From contig NZ_JAJOIL010000001.1 of assembly GCF_021209385.1 (NCBI RefSeq), positions 62,001-126,000 on the forward strand: 64,000 nucleotides of DNA, written 5' to 3'. Under the pieces are notes generated by a model. That model searched no databases. It was not told the DNA's origin and saw only the letters and a list, made by a program, of their open reading frames with translations. This document shows, one piece after another, positions 9,100-15,757 of this stretch (position 1 is the first letter of the stretch; each line of letters begins with the position of its first letter). This stretch comes from Seleniivibrio sp. GTDB lineage: Bacteria > Chrysiogenota > Deferribacteres > Deferribacterales > Geovibrionaceae. A program made the translations under genes and the position numbers.

Positions 9100-10176
9100 C
9101 TACAGCGCTCCGTAGGAATGGAGACCTGATATAAGTAAATTCACACCGATATATGTAAATATCGTACAGACGAAACCCGCCACAGCAACTGCCGAAGCCT
9201 TTGCTCCTGTCCAGTCTTTAACGTATCTTGCATGCAGATAGAACGCATATATCAACCATGTGATGAGCGCCCACGTCTCTTTCGGATCCCAAGACCAATA
9301 GCGTCCCCATGCCTTGTCCGCCCAGACAGCACCGAATATCAGCCCGCCGACAGTGAAGATGGGAAAGCCCACGGATATCATCTTATATGTAAGTTCCTCC
9401 ATAACTTTTCCGTTTATGGAGAATCTGTCCATGAGGCTGGCAAGTTTTCCGCCGAAAAACCATGATGCTGCACAAAATGAGGCATAGACGGCAAACAACA
9501 GGACAAAACCTCCCGCGCCCATATTTTTGAACGTGAAATAGAGCGGTTTATAAGCACCCTCAACAGCCTTAGCTGAAAGTGCCGCGGTAAAATCGCCTAT
9601 CATAAGCAGTGTAACGAAAACAAACGTACCCAGCGCCACTGTCCAGAAGATATATACGCCGCTTCTGCGCGGAAGTCTCAGCGATGCCAGATGCAGAACC
9701 GCTGCCACAAAAGACATAGAGAAAGCCGCATAAGCTATGAAACTCATGGTTGCGTGCGCCAGAAGCCAGTTACTCTTGAGTGCCGGAACAAGGGGCTGTA
9801 TGCCCTTCGCCGCACCTATGGTGTCGACAAAAGCCACAGCCATTCCTGCGATTGCCGTAAGGAATGCGCCCATAAATTTTGTTTTATATCGTCTTTCTAT
9901 CCAGATATTGCCCGCTATGACGCACCACGCAAAGAACAGGAGCGATTCATAGAGGTTTGTTATCGGGACAGAGTGGAAAAATCCCAGATGATATGTGTTT
10001 GAAAACTCCACCCAGCGCATAAGAAATGCGGCAGTGTGACACACAAAACCGAATATTGTCATCCATGACGCTACCTTGCCTATCATCTCTTTTTTGAGAA
10101 TGAGATAGGCAACATATACCGCCATTGTTACCATGTATGTGATACTCGCGATACCGAATAAAACGGAGCTGTTCAT
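9100..10176 (-). CDS. ccsA: Cytochrome c haem-ligation protein CcsA (CcsB/ResC type)
   Basis: A 358-residue polytopic protein of the system II cytochrome c synthetase. The periplasmic WWD-type haem-handling loop reads WGRYWSWDPKETWALITW, flanked by conserved His residues (FFHSVP, LLAHATMSF, FYLHAR). It exports haem and, with ResB, attaches it to CXXCH cysteines on the periplasmic side. It is 1 bp from resB (10178) and therefore in one operon. The octahaem nitrite reductase gene lies immediately upstream of the pair. That enzyme has a CXXCK motif, for which other bacteria use a dedicated ligase, so this CcsA is a candidate for that role. Confidence 0.93.
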   Translation of the reverse strand: MNSSVLFGIASITYMVTMAVYVAYLILKKEMIGKVASWMTIFGFVCHTAAFLMRWVEFSNTYHLGFFHSVPITNLYESLLFFAWCVIAGNIWIERRYKTKFMGAFLTAIAGMAVAFVDTIGAAKGIQPLVPALKSNWLLAHATMSFIAYAAFSMSFVAAVLHLASLRLPRRSGVYIFWTVALGTFVFVTLLMIGDFTAALSAKAVEGAYKPLYFTFKNMGAGGFVLLFAVYASFCAASWFFGGKLASLMDRFSINGKVMEELTYKMISVGFPIFTVGGLIFGAVWADKAWGRYWSWDPKETWALITWLIYAFYLHARYVKDWTGAKASAVAVAGFVCTIFTYIGVNLLISGLHSYGAL

Positions 10177-10177
10177 A

Positions 10178-11539
10178 TTAGCCCTCTTTTGTTACGGATT
10201 GTTTCAGTTTTTCGAGCAGTTCTGGAATCGCTGACCTGAACTTACTCCTGTCCGCATGAACGGAAACCTCTTTTTTGCCGCCGTTCTCTGCGATGCGCAC
10301 CCAAATGCGTTCGTGGCGGAAATAGAAAGCAATAACGACGCCCAGACCGAGGATAAAGAATCCGATATATACTAGGTAGTCAGCAGGGTCGTATGTCACG
10401 GAGAACACAGAATATTGAGCGCCGATAACATCGACGAACTCTATTTTCATGTCGCCCGCCTGACCGGATTCGGGATAGTTCTGGAACACCCATTTGTAGC
10501 CCAGAGACACGTCATTCTCGTCAAACACCTCTATCTTAGCGGCAGGGTTCATCATAAGAGTGTTGAAATTCACCAGTTCGCCTTTCTGATCCTGACCCAG
10601 CGACGGTGCGAAATCCGTAACCTCTGCGGAGATGTCAGTGCCGGGAACAGTGAATTTTTTGCCGAACTGAACGGCTATCTTTTTAACGCTGCCCTCTTTA
10701 CCTGTGTTCATGATGAAAGAAAGGTCTTTGTTGGGATAAAAACCATGATTTGTCTGGAAGATACGATAGCCCTTATATTCTATTGGCGAGTTGACCATCA
10801 CCTCTTTGGATATCTCTTTTCCGTTTTCGATGATGGCTATTTCAGAGCGGTAAAGCTCCGGTTTGACGGAGTTTTCATAATATTTCACATCGAAATTGTC
10901 CAGACGAACTGAAAACGGCAGTTTCCTTGCGGCATTGTTCGCGTTGACGATTGTGTTGTCACTCTGCCCCTCCACAACGCCGAGATTCCCTTTGAATCCG
11001 ACAGTTATACCCACAAGCGCCGCAATAAGAATGACCATGATGCCAAGGTGTGTTATGTACACCCCGCTTCTTGCAAATCGCCCTTTCTCCGCGGCAAGAT
11101 ACATGGTTTCGCCGTCTTTTTCGTCAACGACCGTGTAGCTTTTTAAAAAATCCCTGACATTCGCTTCGGCATCCTCTCCCGCTTCAAATGTTACGGAATT
11201 ATCGCCGAAAATATTTCTGTTTACCGTGACGGGTGTCTTGAGCTGTCTGTAAACGTGAGACAGTCTGTAAAACGTGCATACGGAGAGGTTCACACCAAAA
11301 AGCACCAGAAGCGCAATGAACCACCACGATGAATACATATCCGCAAGACCTGTCTTCACCAGCCACATGTATATCTGCTCATGTGTCATGCCCAGTTTTT
11401 CGGAAAGCCAGAAGACAGCCTTTGAACCGGAGTCGTTCTGCTGGATAAAAGTACCCAGAGAAGAACTTAACGCTATCATGATAAAGAGAAACATCGCGAG
11501 CTTAACGGAAGCCCAGAAATCGAGTATTTTTTTAAGCAC
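10178..11539 (-). CDS. resB: Cytochrome c biogenesis protein ResB (Ccs1)
   Basis: A 453-residue partner of CcsA in system II cytochrome c maturation. The N-terminal ResB pattern reads FWASVKLAMFLFIMIALSSSLGTFIQQN, with TM2 near ADMYSSWWFIALLVLFGVNLSVCT and TM3 at YITHLGIMVILIAALVG. A large periplasmic beta domain follows (YKGYRIFQTNHGFYP) and a final TM near residue 390 (YLVYIGFFILGLGVVIAF). It is thought to present apocytochrome cysteines to CcsA. It lies 1 bp upstream of ccsA. A terminator and a repeat separate it from the octahaem reductase gene 133 bp upstream. Confidence 0.92.
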   Translation of the reverse strand: MLKKILDFWASVKLAMFLFIMIALSSSLGTFIQQNDSGSKAVFWLSEKLGMTHEQIYMWLVKTGLADMYSSWWFIALLVLFGVNLSVCTFYRLSHVYRQLKTPVTVNRNIFGDNSVTFEAGEDAEANVRDFLKSYTVVDEKDGETMYLAAEKGRFARSGVYITHLGIMVILIAALVGITVGFKGNLGVVEGQSDNTIVNANNAARKLPFSVRLDNFDVKYYENSVKPELYRSEIAIIENGKEISKEVMVNSPIEYKGYRIFQTNHGFYPNKDLSFIMNTGKEGSVKKIAVQFGKKFTVPGTDISAEVTDFAPSLGQDQKGELVNFNTLMMNPAAKIEVFDENDVSLGYKWVFQNYPESGQAGDMKIEFVDVIGAQYSVFSVTYDPADYLVYIGFFILGLGVVIAFYFRHERIWVRIAENGGKKEVSVHADRSKFRSAIPELLEKLKQSVTKEG

Positions 11540-11575
11540 GGATACACCTCAAAGTAAGAATAACAAATAATTAAT

Positions 11576-11609
11576 GAGATTGCTTCGTCACTCCGCTCCT
11601 CGCAAAGAC
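11576..11609. repeat. Dispersed intergenic repeat, family A copy 2
   Basis: A core-only copy of the family A element, between resB and the octahaem reductase gene: GAGATTGCTTCGTCACTCCG, then CTCCTCGCAAAGAC. It differs from copy 1 at only a few positions. Confidence 0.65.
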
Positions 11610-11629
11610 GGCAGACGCGGCAGTCTTTT

Positions 11630-11659
11630 AAAAACGGGGGACTTAAAAAGCCCCCCGCG
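11630..11659 (-). terminator. Rho-independent terminator after the octahaem reductase gene
   Basis: On the minus strand a CGGGGGG / TCCCCCG stem with a CTTTTTAAG loop is followed by TTTTTA. It lies 14 bases beyond the reductase stop codon, so resB-ccsA would need read-through or its own promoter. Confidence 0.8.
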
Positions 11660-11672
11660 AGGTTTATGTCTG

Positions 11673-13325
11673 TTACTTCGCTGCGGCAGCGGGAGCTGCT
11701 TTTGCTGCGAGAGCATCGTCAATCATTTTGATGCCTTTCATGGACTCGTCAACAGACTGAGTGAGAGATTCGCGAGCCATTTCGGGGTTGTGGAAACCGT
11801 CTGAGTTTTCAGCGGTCCAGTATTCCCAAAGGATATGCGCTCTGAGGTGCTGATCCTGAGCCTGTTTGATAACAGCCGCGTCGAGACCTGCTTTTTTACC
11901 CTCAACTATCTTGTCGATAAGTCTGTCTATCCAGAACTCTGCTTTTCTCATTTTGCCTTTTGTATAAGCTTTTACAGAGTCGATGGCGTAAACGGCATCC
12001 TTCTCGTTCCAGCCTTTATGGCATCCGCCGGTGAGACAAGATGATTTGATGTGCTCTTTAGGAGTCACAGCATAGTGAGAAGTGAATGTTTTGCCGTCTT
12101 TTCCTTTAACTTTTTCCATGTGGCAAGTGTCGCAGCCTACGCCCGCTTTCGCGTGAGCAGAGTTATAGTATGTCTCAGATTCGGGGTGCTGTGCTTTCCA
12201 CAGGAGTCCGCCTGTAAGAGCATGTTTGAAGTCCAGCATATGTATCTGGTTTTCATAGTGGTCATACAGTTGGAACACGTCTTTATAGGGGAAGTGGTTC
12301 GTTCTGTCGTCGGCGAAAGTAACTTTTTCACCTGTTTTAGTGTCTGTACCGGGGTTGCAGTTGTATTCAACGTGGCACTGACCGCACTGGAGTCTTGAGT
12401 CGTATTTTTCAAGGATAGCTATTTTTCTTGTATAGCCTCTCATACCCATGTCATACACTTTTATCTTTGTATGATTGGGGTCTTTCGCCCAGAGAGTATC
12501 CGCTTCGGGTCTTGTGAGCGCCTGAATAAGAGCATCTCTTACGATTCTCGGTTTGGCAGAGTGAGGATCATGGCAGTAGAAGCAGTTAAGTCCGTGCTGA
12601 AGTTTTTTTGACTGAACCATAGCAACGGGTTTGCTGGCTCTGGAGAAAGGAGCGCCTGCTTTGGGATCGCCCATGTATGCCCAGTCAAGGATATGGTCCT
12701 GAGTTTTACACTGGAGGCAAACGGGGTTAACCGTTGTTGCAGTCTGTCTCATGAATGCTTTCTGGTCGTCTGTGGAGGGTTCTTTGTCAACAATAGTGTC
12801 CCAAACCTTTCCGGGTTTGTTGTTAACATATTCCCAGCCGTTTTTGGGCTGGAATCTGCCGCCGAAAGCTCTGTCAACAACAAGCTGGTCAAGAAGCATA
12901 AAGGGGTGGCTTCTGGTGAGTCCGTGTTCCTTTGTGAAACCATGTCCCATCATCAGTTTATCCCAATAAGGGTTGGGTGCTCTGTTTGTCAGCTGAGATT
13001 TTTCGTCTCTCGCCGGACGATGCTTGCTCACCTGAAGGAAAGTATCGTGCTGATTTTTGTGACATTGTCCGCACGCTTCCCAGGATGTGTCCACAACGGG
13101 GCGTTTTGAAGAATCTGCAAGGTGATCCTTCAGACCGGAGTGGCAGCTTACACAGTTAACATTCTTGTGCTTTCCGCCGGCGTGCAGTTCTTTAACTACA
13201 TCGTGGCATTCGTAGCAGGTCTTGGGGTTAACAGGTTTTTCCTGTGCGGCCATGGCAGACGACGCGAAGAGCATAAAAAGTGCCGACATCGCTATGACCG
13301 TAATAAAGTTAGCCATTCGTAACAT
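11673..13325 (-). CDS. Octahaem cytochrome c nitrite reductase (ONR type)
   Basis: A 550-residue periplasmic enzyme with a cleaved signal peptide (ends AMA). Eight haem motifs are visible: CYECH 37, CVSCH 58, CGQCH 85, CLQCK 203, CFYCH 248, CGQCH 314, CDTCH 398 and an unusual CX4CH (CLTGGCH) at 430. The lysine-ligated fourth haem is the catalytic one in octahaem nitrite reductases. CHVEYNC places Tyr321 and Cys323 as in the covalently linked Tyr-Cys pair of the Thioalkalivibrio enzyme. KAQHPE (377-382) supplies the active-site Gln/His region shared with NrfA. It should reduce nitrite (or hydroxylamine, sulfite) with six electrons to ammonium. The start follows GGAGG at a 4-nt spacing. Confidence 0.9.
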   Translation of the reverse strand: MLRMANFITVIAMSALFMLFASSAMAAQEKPVNPKTCYECHDVVKELHAGGKHKNVNCVSCHSGLKDHLADSSKRPVVDTSWEACGQCHKNQHDTFLQVSKHRPARDEKSQLTNRAPNPYWDKLMMGHGFTKEHGLTRSHPFMLLDQLVVDRAFGGRFQPKNGWEYVNNKPGKVWDTIVDKEPSTDDQKAFMRQTATTVNPVCLQCKTQDHILDWAYMGDPKAGAPFSRASKPVAMVQSKKLQHGLNCFYCHDPHSAKPRIVRDALIQALTRPEADTLWAKDPNHTKIKVYDMGMRGYTRKIAILEKYDSRLQCGQCHVEYNCNPGTDTKTGEKVTFADDRTNHFPYKDVFQLYDHYENQIHMLDFKHALTGGLLWKAQHPESETYYNSAHAKAGVGCDTCHMEKVKGKDGKTFTSHYAVTPKEHIKSSCLTGGCHKGWNEKDAVYAIDSVKAYTKGKMRKAEFWIDRLIDKIVEGKKAGLDAAVIKQAQDQHLRAHILWEYWTAENSDGFHNPEMARESLTQSVDESMKGIKMIDDALAAKAAPAAAAK

Positions 13326-13507: not shown

Positions 13508-13864
13508 TTAACATGCGTATAAGCTTGAGATGCTTGACATCAGCCTTTCAAGGTTAACAGGTTTGCGGATGACATCGTTCACCCGAAGCTCGTCTTTTGT
13601 ATATTCGTATGCGGTAAGCGCAATTATCGGCGTCTCACAGCCTTTCTCACGCAATCTGCGAACCATCTCCCTTCCATCCATAACTGGCATATTGATATCC
13701 GTTATGATGATGTCCGGAGCCGATTCATTTACTTTGTCAAGCCCATCCTGTCCGTCTTTGGCAAGAACAACTTCCTTTACCCTTTTTGACAGCATTTTGG
13801 CAAAGTACATGCGTGTTATAGCTTCATCTTCGACATAAAGGACAGTCATATCATTCACGTCCAT
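13508..13864 (-). CDS. Single-domain CheY-like response regulator
   Basis: A 118-residue receiver domain with no output domain. The acidic pocket is in VLYVEDEA, the phospho-acceptor Asp in IIITDINMPVMDG and the conserved Lys in IRKPVN. The Thr/Ala switch is in IIALTAYEY. It is divergent from the haem-domain histidine kinase (121 bp between starts) and is its most likely partner. Without a DNA-binding domain the signal must pass to another protein or a phosphorelay. Confidence 0.88.
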   Translation of the reverse strand: MDVNDMTVLYVEDEAITRMYFAKMLSKRVKEVVLAKDGQDGLDKVNESAPDIIITDINMPVMDGREMVRRLREKGCETPIIALTAYEYTKDELRVNDVIRKPVNLERLMSSISSLYAC

Positions 13865-13984: not shown

Positions 13985-15757
13985 ATGAAACAGCCCAACA
14001 GCATCAGATTGATTCAGAATTACTTTGTGGTACTGATAGTTGTATGGACAGCCGGTGTCGGCGGTTCACTGATATGGACTATTGACACTGCGAAAAATAA
14101 TACTCTGATAACTGCGCTTGCTCAAGGCAGGATGGCTCTTGAAAAAGACAAGATGTTCCGCCGGTGGGCATCAATACACGGCGGGGTTTATACTTTTACA
14201 TCCACAACGATCCCAAACCCTTATCTGTCTCATATCAAAGACAGGGATATACACCTTCCCGACGGGCGTACACTGACCCTCGTCAATCCGGCGTACATGG
14301 TGCGCCAGATGTACGAGTTCAACAAAGATGCGGACAATGTTAAAACCCGCCTTGTCAGCGACAAACTCCTGAACCCTGTGAACGAACCGGAAGGATGGGA
14401 AATAGAAGCTCTTAAACAGGTCAACAAAACCGGAAAAGAATATTATGAGATGGACAAGCGCGATGCAAAATATGAGTTCCGCATGATGGCTCCGTTCTTC
14501 ATAGAACCGCCATGTATGAAATGCCACTCGTTTCAGGGATATAAGGTCGGCGACATAAGAGGTGCAATCAGCGTTGTAACTGACATATCCGGCGTTATAC
14601 ACGGCGAAAAAGAGATTAAGCGGTCGGCATATGTCGGGCATATCATTCTTTACATACTGGTACTTATTCTGTTTCGTCTGGGTTATCTGAACATAGTACG
14701 CATGCTCACCCGCCTGCACGACCGGGAATCCGTGCTTGATTCCGCCATGAGCCGCAATGAATCAATACTTCAATCCGCATCCGAAGGTATCTTCGGTGTT
14801 GACAGACTTGGAAGCGTTACCTTCATAAACAGCGCCCTCAGCAAAAGCCTGCAATACACGGCAGAAGAGATAGTGGGCAAAAGCCATATCCTGCTTACCC
14901 ACAAAAGGGACGAACAGGGCATGCCTGTAGAATCTTCCGACTGCATCATACTGAAAGCCATCGGCACAAAAAAACCACTCAACTCAGTGGAAACATTTGT
15001 CCGCAAGGACGGAACGGAATTCTTCGGCGAAATGTTCGCATCGCCCATGGTGGTTGACGGTCACTCAACAGGCGCCGTCGTCTCATTTTTTGACATAACA
15101 GACAGGATGGCAAAAGACACTGCGATCAAAAAAGCTTTGCAGGAGAAAGATATACTGCTGAGCGAACTTCACCACAGGGTAAAGAACAACCTTCAGATCG
15201 TTTCAGGGATACTGTCGCTTCAGGCGGAAGCGGCAGAGACAAGCGGACAGTCTCTGGATGATATTTTAAAGAACGCCCAGTCGAGGGTGATGTCAATGGC
15301 GCTCATGCACGACTGTCTTTATAAGTCGGAAGACCTGTCAACTGTGGATATGGCTGACTATTTCTCAAAACTGATAGATTACTATGCGGTCACATTTACT
15401 CACACAGGAAATATGATCCGGTTTGAAACGGACATAGAGAAGATCGACCTGCCGATATCGTCCACAATAACATGCGGACTTCTTATCAACGAGCTGGTCA
15501 CTAACAGTATCAAACACGCATTTGCAGAAACAGAATATCCGGCAATATCCATAAGTCTGAAAAATGATCGGGGGAATGCCGTTCTCACTGTAAGCGACAA
15601 CGGAAAAGGTCTCGACGAGAACGCTCAGGAGAAGGACAGTCTGGGAATGATGCTGATACACAGTCTCACAGATCAGCTTTACGGAAAACTCTCCTTTGAG
15701 AATAAAAACGGACTGACAATCACGATAAGCTTCCCCATAAGGATAAAAAAATCTTAA
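13985..15757 (+). CDS. Histidine kinase with c-type haem (Tll0287/DUF3365) sensor and PAS domain
   Basis: A 590-residue membrane sensor. TM1 (residues 11-33) and TM2 (about 215-235) enclose a periplasmic DUF3365/Tll0287-like domain with PVNEPEGWE and the covalent-haem motif CMKCH (177-181). A PAS domain (about 255-375) and a HisKA_2-type dimerisation box (ELHHRVKNNLQIVSGILSL) follow. The HATPase domain has N-box ELVTNSIKHAF and G-box DNGKGL. The haem domain suggests sensing of redox state or a diatomic ligand such as NO. It has the AAGGTG ribosome site and sits divergent from the CheY-like regulator, beside the nitrite reductase. The same sensor domain occurs in the chemoreceptor at 57226-58944. 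Confidence 0.9.
   Translation: MKQPNSIRLIQNYFVVLIVVWTAGVGGSLIWTIDTAKNNTLITALAQGRMALEKDKMFRRWASIHGGVYTFTSTTIPNPYLSHIKDRDIHLPDGRTLTLVNPAYMVRQMYEFNKDADNVKTRLVSDKLLNPVNEPEGWEIEALKQVNKTGKEYYEMDKRDAKYEFRMMAPFFIEPPCMKCHSFQGYKVGDIRGAISVVTDISGVIHGEKEIKRSAYVGHIILYILVLILFRLGYLNIVRMLTRLHDRESVLDSAMSRNESILQSASEGIFGVDRLGSVTFINSALSKSLQYTAEEIVGKSHILLTHKRDEQGMPVESSDCIILKAIGTKKPLNSVETFVRKDGTEFFGEMFASPMVVDGHSTGAVVSFFDITDRMAKDTAIKKALQEKDILLSELHHRVKNNLQIVSGILSLQAEAAETSGQSLDDILKNAQSRVMSMALMHDCLYKSEDLSTVDMADYFSKLIDYYAVTFTHTGNMIRFETDIEKIDLPISSTITCGLLINELVTNSIKHAFAETEYPAISISLKNDRGNAVLTVSDNGKGLDENAQEKDSLGMMLIHSLTDQLYGKLSFENKNGLTITISFPIRIKKS

Follow-up and report, generated by a model that had tools for sequence, protein, structure and literature searches.

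Why should a bacterium keep a cytochrome c synthase directly beside a single nitrite reductase? The question is raised by a locus of Seleniivibrio sp., in a stretch of 64,000 nucleotides (the window), where the gene for an octahaem nitrite reductase (ONR) is followed by those for ResB and CcsA. The first-pass annotation of the window had placed this arrangement at positions 9100–13325, for which both coordinates and content proved right, and had proposed that the pair may be a system specific for the CXXCK haem of the reductase. The features on which the argument turns are the following:

11673..13325, minus strand: ONR of the TvNiR type, 550 aa with signal peptide (PDB 8rv0 and 2zo5, PF02335)
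12705..12719, minus strand: CLQCK, attachment site of catalytic haem 4, aa 203–207, aligned with CLNCK of TvNiR
12357..12365, minus strand: Tyr321-Asn-Cys323, cross-link residues in TvNiR, aligned with VEYNC of 2zo5
12018..12038, minus strand: CLTGGCH, haem 8 motif of the CX4CH type, two residues longer than in TvNiR and 8rv0
10178..11539, minus strand: ResB (CcsB), subunit of a System II cytochrome c synthase, 453 aa (PF05140, E 2e-85; PDB CcsBA 25vk, 7s9y)
11048..11050, minus strand: ResB His164, aligned with the transmembrane haem-channel His of CcsBA, invariant in 36/36
9100..10176, minus strand: CcsA (ResC; NCBIfam name CcsB), haem-handling subunit, 358 aa (PF01578, E 2e-44; TIGR03144; PDB 25vk)
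9754..9756, minus strand: CcsA His141, aligned with the first periplasmic haem-ligand His, invariant in 36/36
9271..9309, minus strand: CcsA WWD domain, W290–W302 (WGRYWSWDPKETW), W and D invariant in 36/36
9118..9120, minus strand: CcsA His353 (GLHSYG), aligned with the second periplasmic haem-ligand His, invariant in 36/36

The product of the first gene matches PDB 8rv0 and TvNiR (2zo5) over its full length (E about 1e-151, identity about 48–49%) and carries seven CXnCH motifs, one of them of the CX4CH type, plus one CXXCK: CYECH37, CVSCH58, CGQCH85 and CLQCK203 for haems 1–4, then CFYCH248, CGQCH314, CDTCH398 and CLTGGCH430 for haems 5–8. Together with R152, Y321, C323 and H380, which are invariant in a 9-sequence alignment, these features confirm at the sequence level that the protein is a TvNiR-type octahaem nitrite reductase, with a predicted activity from nitrite to ammonia. 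CLQCK and VEYNC had already been singled out by the first-pass annotation, the former as the motif of the catalytic haem and the latter for the Tyr-X-Cys spacing of the Thioalkalivibrio enzyme; both identifications hold, VEYNC aligning exactly with its TvNiR counterpart. By analogy with TvNiR, a thioether cross-link probably joins Tyr321 and Cys323 in the Seleniivibrio enzyme as well. The eight haem motifs, CXXCK (present in every full-length ONR examined) and Tyr-X-Cys are common to this enzyme, TvNiR and 8rv0, whereas CX4CH at haem 8, on which the first-pass annotation is silent, sets it apart. The latter motif is kept throughout the phylum with one exception (G027; L051, 7044–8714, minus strand), which reads CLTGKCY, with Tyr in the place of the axial His; the completeness of this genome is given as 100%. 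When CXXCK was sought within the PF02335 family of the Seleniivibrio genome, the only other member was a weakly related multihaem protein devoid of this motif. G022 and G032 each encode a further octahaem CXXCK protein (CLKCK; L080, 7250–8914, minus strand; L081, 149–1921, plus strand), which is divergent from the ONR (about 31% identity) and has no ResB/CcsA next to it.

The three genes follow one another on the minus strand in the order ONR, ResB, CcsA, with gaps of 133 nt and 1 nt, respectively, and this order is not due to chance, because it is kept in 23 genomes. A scan of the locus for promoters and terminators returned only weak consensus matches. The adjacent ResB and CcsA domains, the latter scoring 246 bits against NCBIfam TIGR03144 (cut-off 187.6), possess the haem-channel His, the periplasmic His and the WWD motif of a System II synthase. 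These residues, as well as CcsA His315, are invariant in a set of 36 sequences, 24 linked to an ONR and 12 unlinked; judging from its catalytic residues, the pair looks intact and functional. ResB and CcsA are two genes, and not the fused CcsBA polypeptide of the NrfI family. Upstream of the ONR lie a response regulator (13508–13864, minus strand) and a sensor kinase (13985–15757, plus strand), both of which adjoin the ONR in three of the four other genomes of the genus. The Tll0287-like sensor domain of the kinase bears a CXXCH motif (CMKCH), and a role as c-haem redox sensor for the ONR is possible.

How, then, are the other cytochromes c of the organism matured? In the Seleniivibrio genome (2.9 Mb, 42 contigs, 96.6% complete), contig C17 carries ccdA and a ccmE-ccmF-ccmA-ccmB-ccmC operon, in which the C-terminus of CcmE reads CPSKY, with Cys in place of His, while a search of the genome for CcmH found none. 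Such a CcmE defines System I*, a variant known in Desulfovibrio and archaea, many members of which are devoid of CcmH (PMC3601427). By these marks, general cytochrome c maturation is here the task of a separate System I*, and the ONR-linked pair is therefore the only System II synthase of the genome. A genome-wide search of the same assembly returned no second ResB and no other lyase-type CcsA, the remaining PF01578 matches being CcmF, CcmC (contig C17) and HemX; the latter, encoded beside hemA, was rejected as a lyase-type CcsA for want of a WWD motif and a C-terminal His. The first-pass annotation had called for a search for a second ResB/CcsA set and considered that a lone pair would refute its proposal. 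The pair is indeed alone, yet this loses its refuting force, because the general machinery is System I*, i.e., of another kind. As would be expected of a dedicated lyase, the pair is encoded alongside a CXXCK enzyme in a genome that has a different system for general use.

The same coupling recurs across the phylum. Among 51 genomes of Deferribacterota (including Seleniivibrio, Calditerrivibrio and others), CcmE was found in 47 and a clear ResB (E below 1e-40) in 24, which in 23 cases lies directly downstream of the ONR on the same strand; in the 24th (G007), the ResB contig ends where the ONR would sit. In G048, ResB was not found and the ONR contig ends at that point. The ONR-adjacent pair spans three families, between which ResB identity is just 25–40%, with invariant catalytic residues. 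At the genus level, the pair occurs in six of the ten ONR-positive genera, and ResB in none of the seven ONR-negative System I genera (Fisher p 0.03); this association is modest on its own, and the adjacency (23/23) is the stronger signal. The part of the first-pass proposal that made the pair a dedicated system is thereby upheld, since the pair tracks the presence and location of the ONR phylum-wide, next to a separate System I*. Genomes of genus g15 (L073–L075) have, in addition to System I and the pair next to the ONR, a third set, a fused CcsBA of about 950–970 aa, which in L074 lies near Sco- and copper-chaperone-like genes. L074 (719–3580; G040) also contains a multihaem cytochrome c gene seemingly split by an inserted two-ORF transposase element.

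One family departs from the rule. Family f6 (G029–G033; five MAGs, 76–95% complete) seems to consist of gut symbionts from the termite-associated lineage reported in PMC12887300; its genomes have the ONR, and neither ResB nor CcsA was found in them. These ONRs carry CXXCK, except for the G033 copy, a fragment without that region; a CXXCK enzyme thus does occur in this lineage without the lyase. The contig of G029 (L044) is a near-perfect inverted duplication bearing the ONR twice, probably an assembly artefact. Could the pair, then, be redundant, or a broader synthase merely lying beside the ONR, with System I* able to mature the enzyme alone, as in f6? Shewanella offers a parallel, as it matures NrfA with a CcmF that seems to attach the CXXCK haem without a dedicated lyase (PMC6976685). 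Nevertheless, the adjacency wherever it is visible, in three families, the lack of the pair in every ONR-negative System I genus and the invariance of the catalytic residues in spite of such a divergence of ResB make redundancy improbable. It is more improbable still that the pair is needed for the CX4CH of haem 8 and not for CXXCK, a reading that we hardly credit: CX4CH is found in all pair-bearing genomes except G027 (CX4CY), but the latter retains its pair though the motif has lost its His, while CX4CH ONRs exist without the pair in f6 and have no adjoining pair in other phyla. Moreover, the Seleniivibrio genome encodes another multihaem cytochrome with CX4CH (L013), distant from the pair.

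In the ONR tree, the sequences of the phylum fall together on one side of a branch (79/80), f6 being placed next to f7 (94/99), and a grouping of the pair-bearing ONRs to the exclusion of f6 is disfavoured (AU p 0.023). All 24 linked CcsAs fall in a single clade (100/99), of which the nearest relatives are general CcsAs of Nitrospirota, while the fused CcsBA proteins of the phylum form a clade apart from it. The simplest story compatible with these trees would be a single origin of the ONR with its pair, followed by the loss of the pair in f6. In G025 (L049), the ONR groups with that of the window's species (100/99) but the CcsA branches apart from those of the other members of the genus (97/94), which may point to the replacement of one part of the cluster. 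A faster divergence of the linked pair was considered and set aside: we make no claim about its rate, because ResB identity is also low relative to that of the ONR in unlinked genomes.

Outside the phylum, the situation is different. Among the best 80 ONR loci from 84,980 species genomes, ResB/CcsA adjoins the ONR only in Deferribacterota, and plasmid searches returned no ONR and no informative CcsA neighbour. The 42 ONR genomes of other phyla have either ResB without CcmE (36, often with a single ResB) or CcmE without a true ResB (6), never both; a ResB match in G092 was discarded, as it falls in a CcmF-like frame next to CcmE. One general system evidently serves the CXXCK haem as well as the CXXCH haems in these organisms. 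The CXXCK selectivity of the linked pair is therefore not a given, and the pair might mature all eight haems alike, the ONR having been imported with the general synthase of a System II-only donor. The affinity of the linked CcsA with the general CcsAs of Nitrospirota is in line with such an origin, as is the fact that Ala148 is the sole residue distinguishing linked from unlinked CcsA. In E. coli, however, Ccm needs no NrfEFG to attach the CXXCH haems of NrfA (PMC3601427), and System I* could therefore handle the seven CXXCH/CX4CH sites of the ONR. A pair indifferent to the motif thus seems unlikely to us, though less so than a redundant one. The System II-only phyla, in which a general ResB/CcsA serves both motifs, and f6, which lacks the pair, nonetheless fail to bear out the specificity part of the first-pass proposal; the special point may instead be a poor handling of CXXCK by System I*.

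Altogether, we consider it reasonably probable that ONR, ResB and CcsA constitute a unit of three genes, with a System II synthase dedicated to the ONR alone and above all to its CXXCK haem. In favour of this dedication are the sole pair lying beside the ONR, the separate System I*, the coupling across the phylum, the presence of one system only and of no adjoining pair in the ONR genomes of other phyla, the invariant His and WWD residues and the single CcsA clade, as well as the NrfA clusters of Desulfobacterota and the precedent of NrfI and NrfEFG (see below). Against it are the CXXCK ONR of f6 without a pair, the six System I genomes of other phyla with an ONR and no ResB, the CcmF of Shewanella (PMC6976685) and the modest genus-level association; given f6 and these System I-only genomes, the pair is not universally required. 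The best reading is that the ONR was imported or inherited together with its System II synthase, and that the pair was kept because the resident System I* presumably handles the CXXCK haem poorly, which suggests that the ONR carries along an assembly tool of its own for the unusual haem of its active site.

Export of haem through the His channel and its presentation at the WWD domain are established for CcsBA and NrfI. By extension, haem b would be exported through the His channel of the Seleniivibrio ResB/CcsA, presented at the WWD face and joined by the pair to apo-ONR, at least at CLQCK (haem 4), while System I* (CcmABC, CcmE*, CcmF), presumed poor at this site, would mature the general cytochromes c. 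We infer that the three genes are co-expressed, that the pair attaches haem to the ONR and that CXXCK, and not the full set of eight sites, is where it is needed. The locus offers a clean two-system background for such questions, with System I* for the bulk of the cytochromes c and the ONR as the only evident client of the pair, the loss of which is thus expected to show on one protein; family f6, which keeps the ONR and has no pair, is a natural test of System I* handling CXXCK alone.

Dedicated CXXCK lyases are known from hosts of both kinds, i.e., NrfEFG with System I and NrfI with System II (PMC12285233, PMC6976685). A 2025 review names NrfI as the sole System II protein confirmed to recognise CXXCK and describes the mode in other such organisms as unknown (PMC12285233). 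Our search of the freely accessible literature found nothing on ResB/CcsA with an ONR in this phylum, nor any precedent for a System I* host that keeps a System II pair for a single enzyme. NrfI of Wolinella succinogenes (nrfHAIJ; PMC12285233) likewise belongs to System II, is encoded next to a CXXCK nitrite reductase and is dedicated to the active-site haem of that enzyme. It is, however, one fused CcsBA serving a pentahaem NrfA, and its host relies on System II for general maturation as well, whereas Seleniivibrio combines unfused ResB and CcsA, an octahaem ONR and System I*. The general ResB/CcsA of Nitrospirota (G084, G061) and G056 are the closest CcsA relatives in the tree and have the same domain layout, but they do not lie beside an ONR, and their genomes have no CcmE, so that System II is their cytochrome c system.

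A parallel in gene order comes from Desulfobacterota (a sample of 394 genomes), in which we read the neighbourhoods of 59 CXXCK NrfA and 21 ONR genes. Six of the 59 NrfA loci (L190, L191, L192, L196, L201, L203) show nrfH-nrfA-resB-ccsA in that order, while ResB/CcsA was found beside none of the 21 ONRs. As in Seleniivibrio, an unfused ResB/CcsA lies directly downstream of a CXXCK nitrite reductase; unlike there, the enzyme is a pentahaem NrfA with NrfH, and the very divergent ResB/CcsA, of separate derivation, include a CcsA belonging to a separate, very distant clade. We are evenly divided on the broader generalisation that a portable module of a reductase and its private System II synthase is inherited as a unit in System I* bacteria, that the need for CXXCK attachment can retain a second, unrelated system, and that the pairing of an unfused System II with a CXXCK reductase arose at least twice (with ONR in Deferribacterota and with NrfA in some Desulfobacterota), besides NrfI.

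Candidates for NrfE were also considered within the phylum. A second CcmF in G010 and G015–G017 was rejected, as it adjoins CcmH, a CcmI-like protein and ABC transporter genes, with no CXXCK cytochrome, and so was that of G033, which has no NrfF or NrfG beside it; in G010, G015 and G016 (L169–L171), the former set includes a small protein with the motifs MAMCEPCRS and CETCGTRW. NrfEFG of E. coli (PMC12285233, PMC3601427) resembles the Seleniivibrio arrangement in being a dedicated CXXCK lyase beside its reductase in a System I organism, but NrfE is a paralogue of the CcmF of the resident System I, whereas the putative Seleniivibrio lyase belongs to System II.
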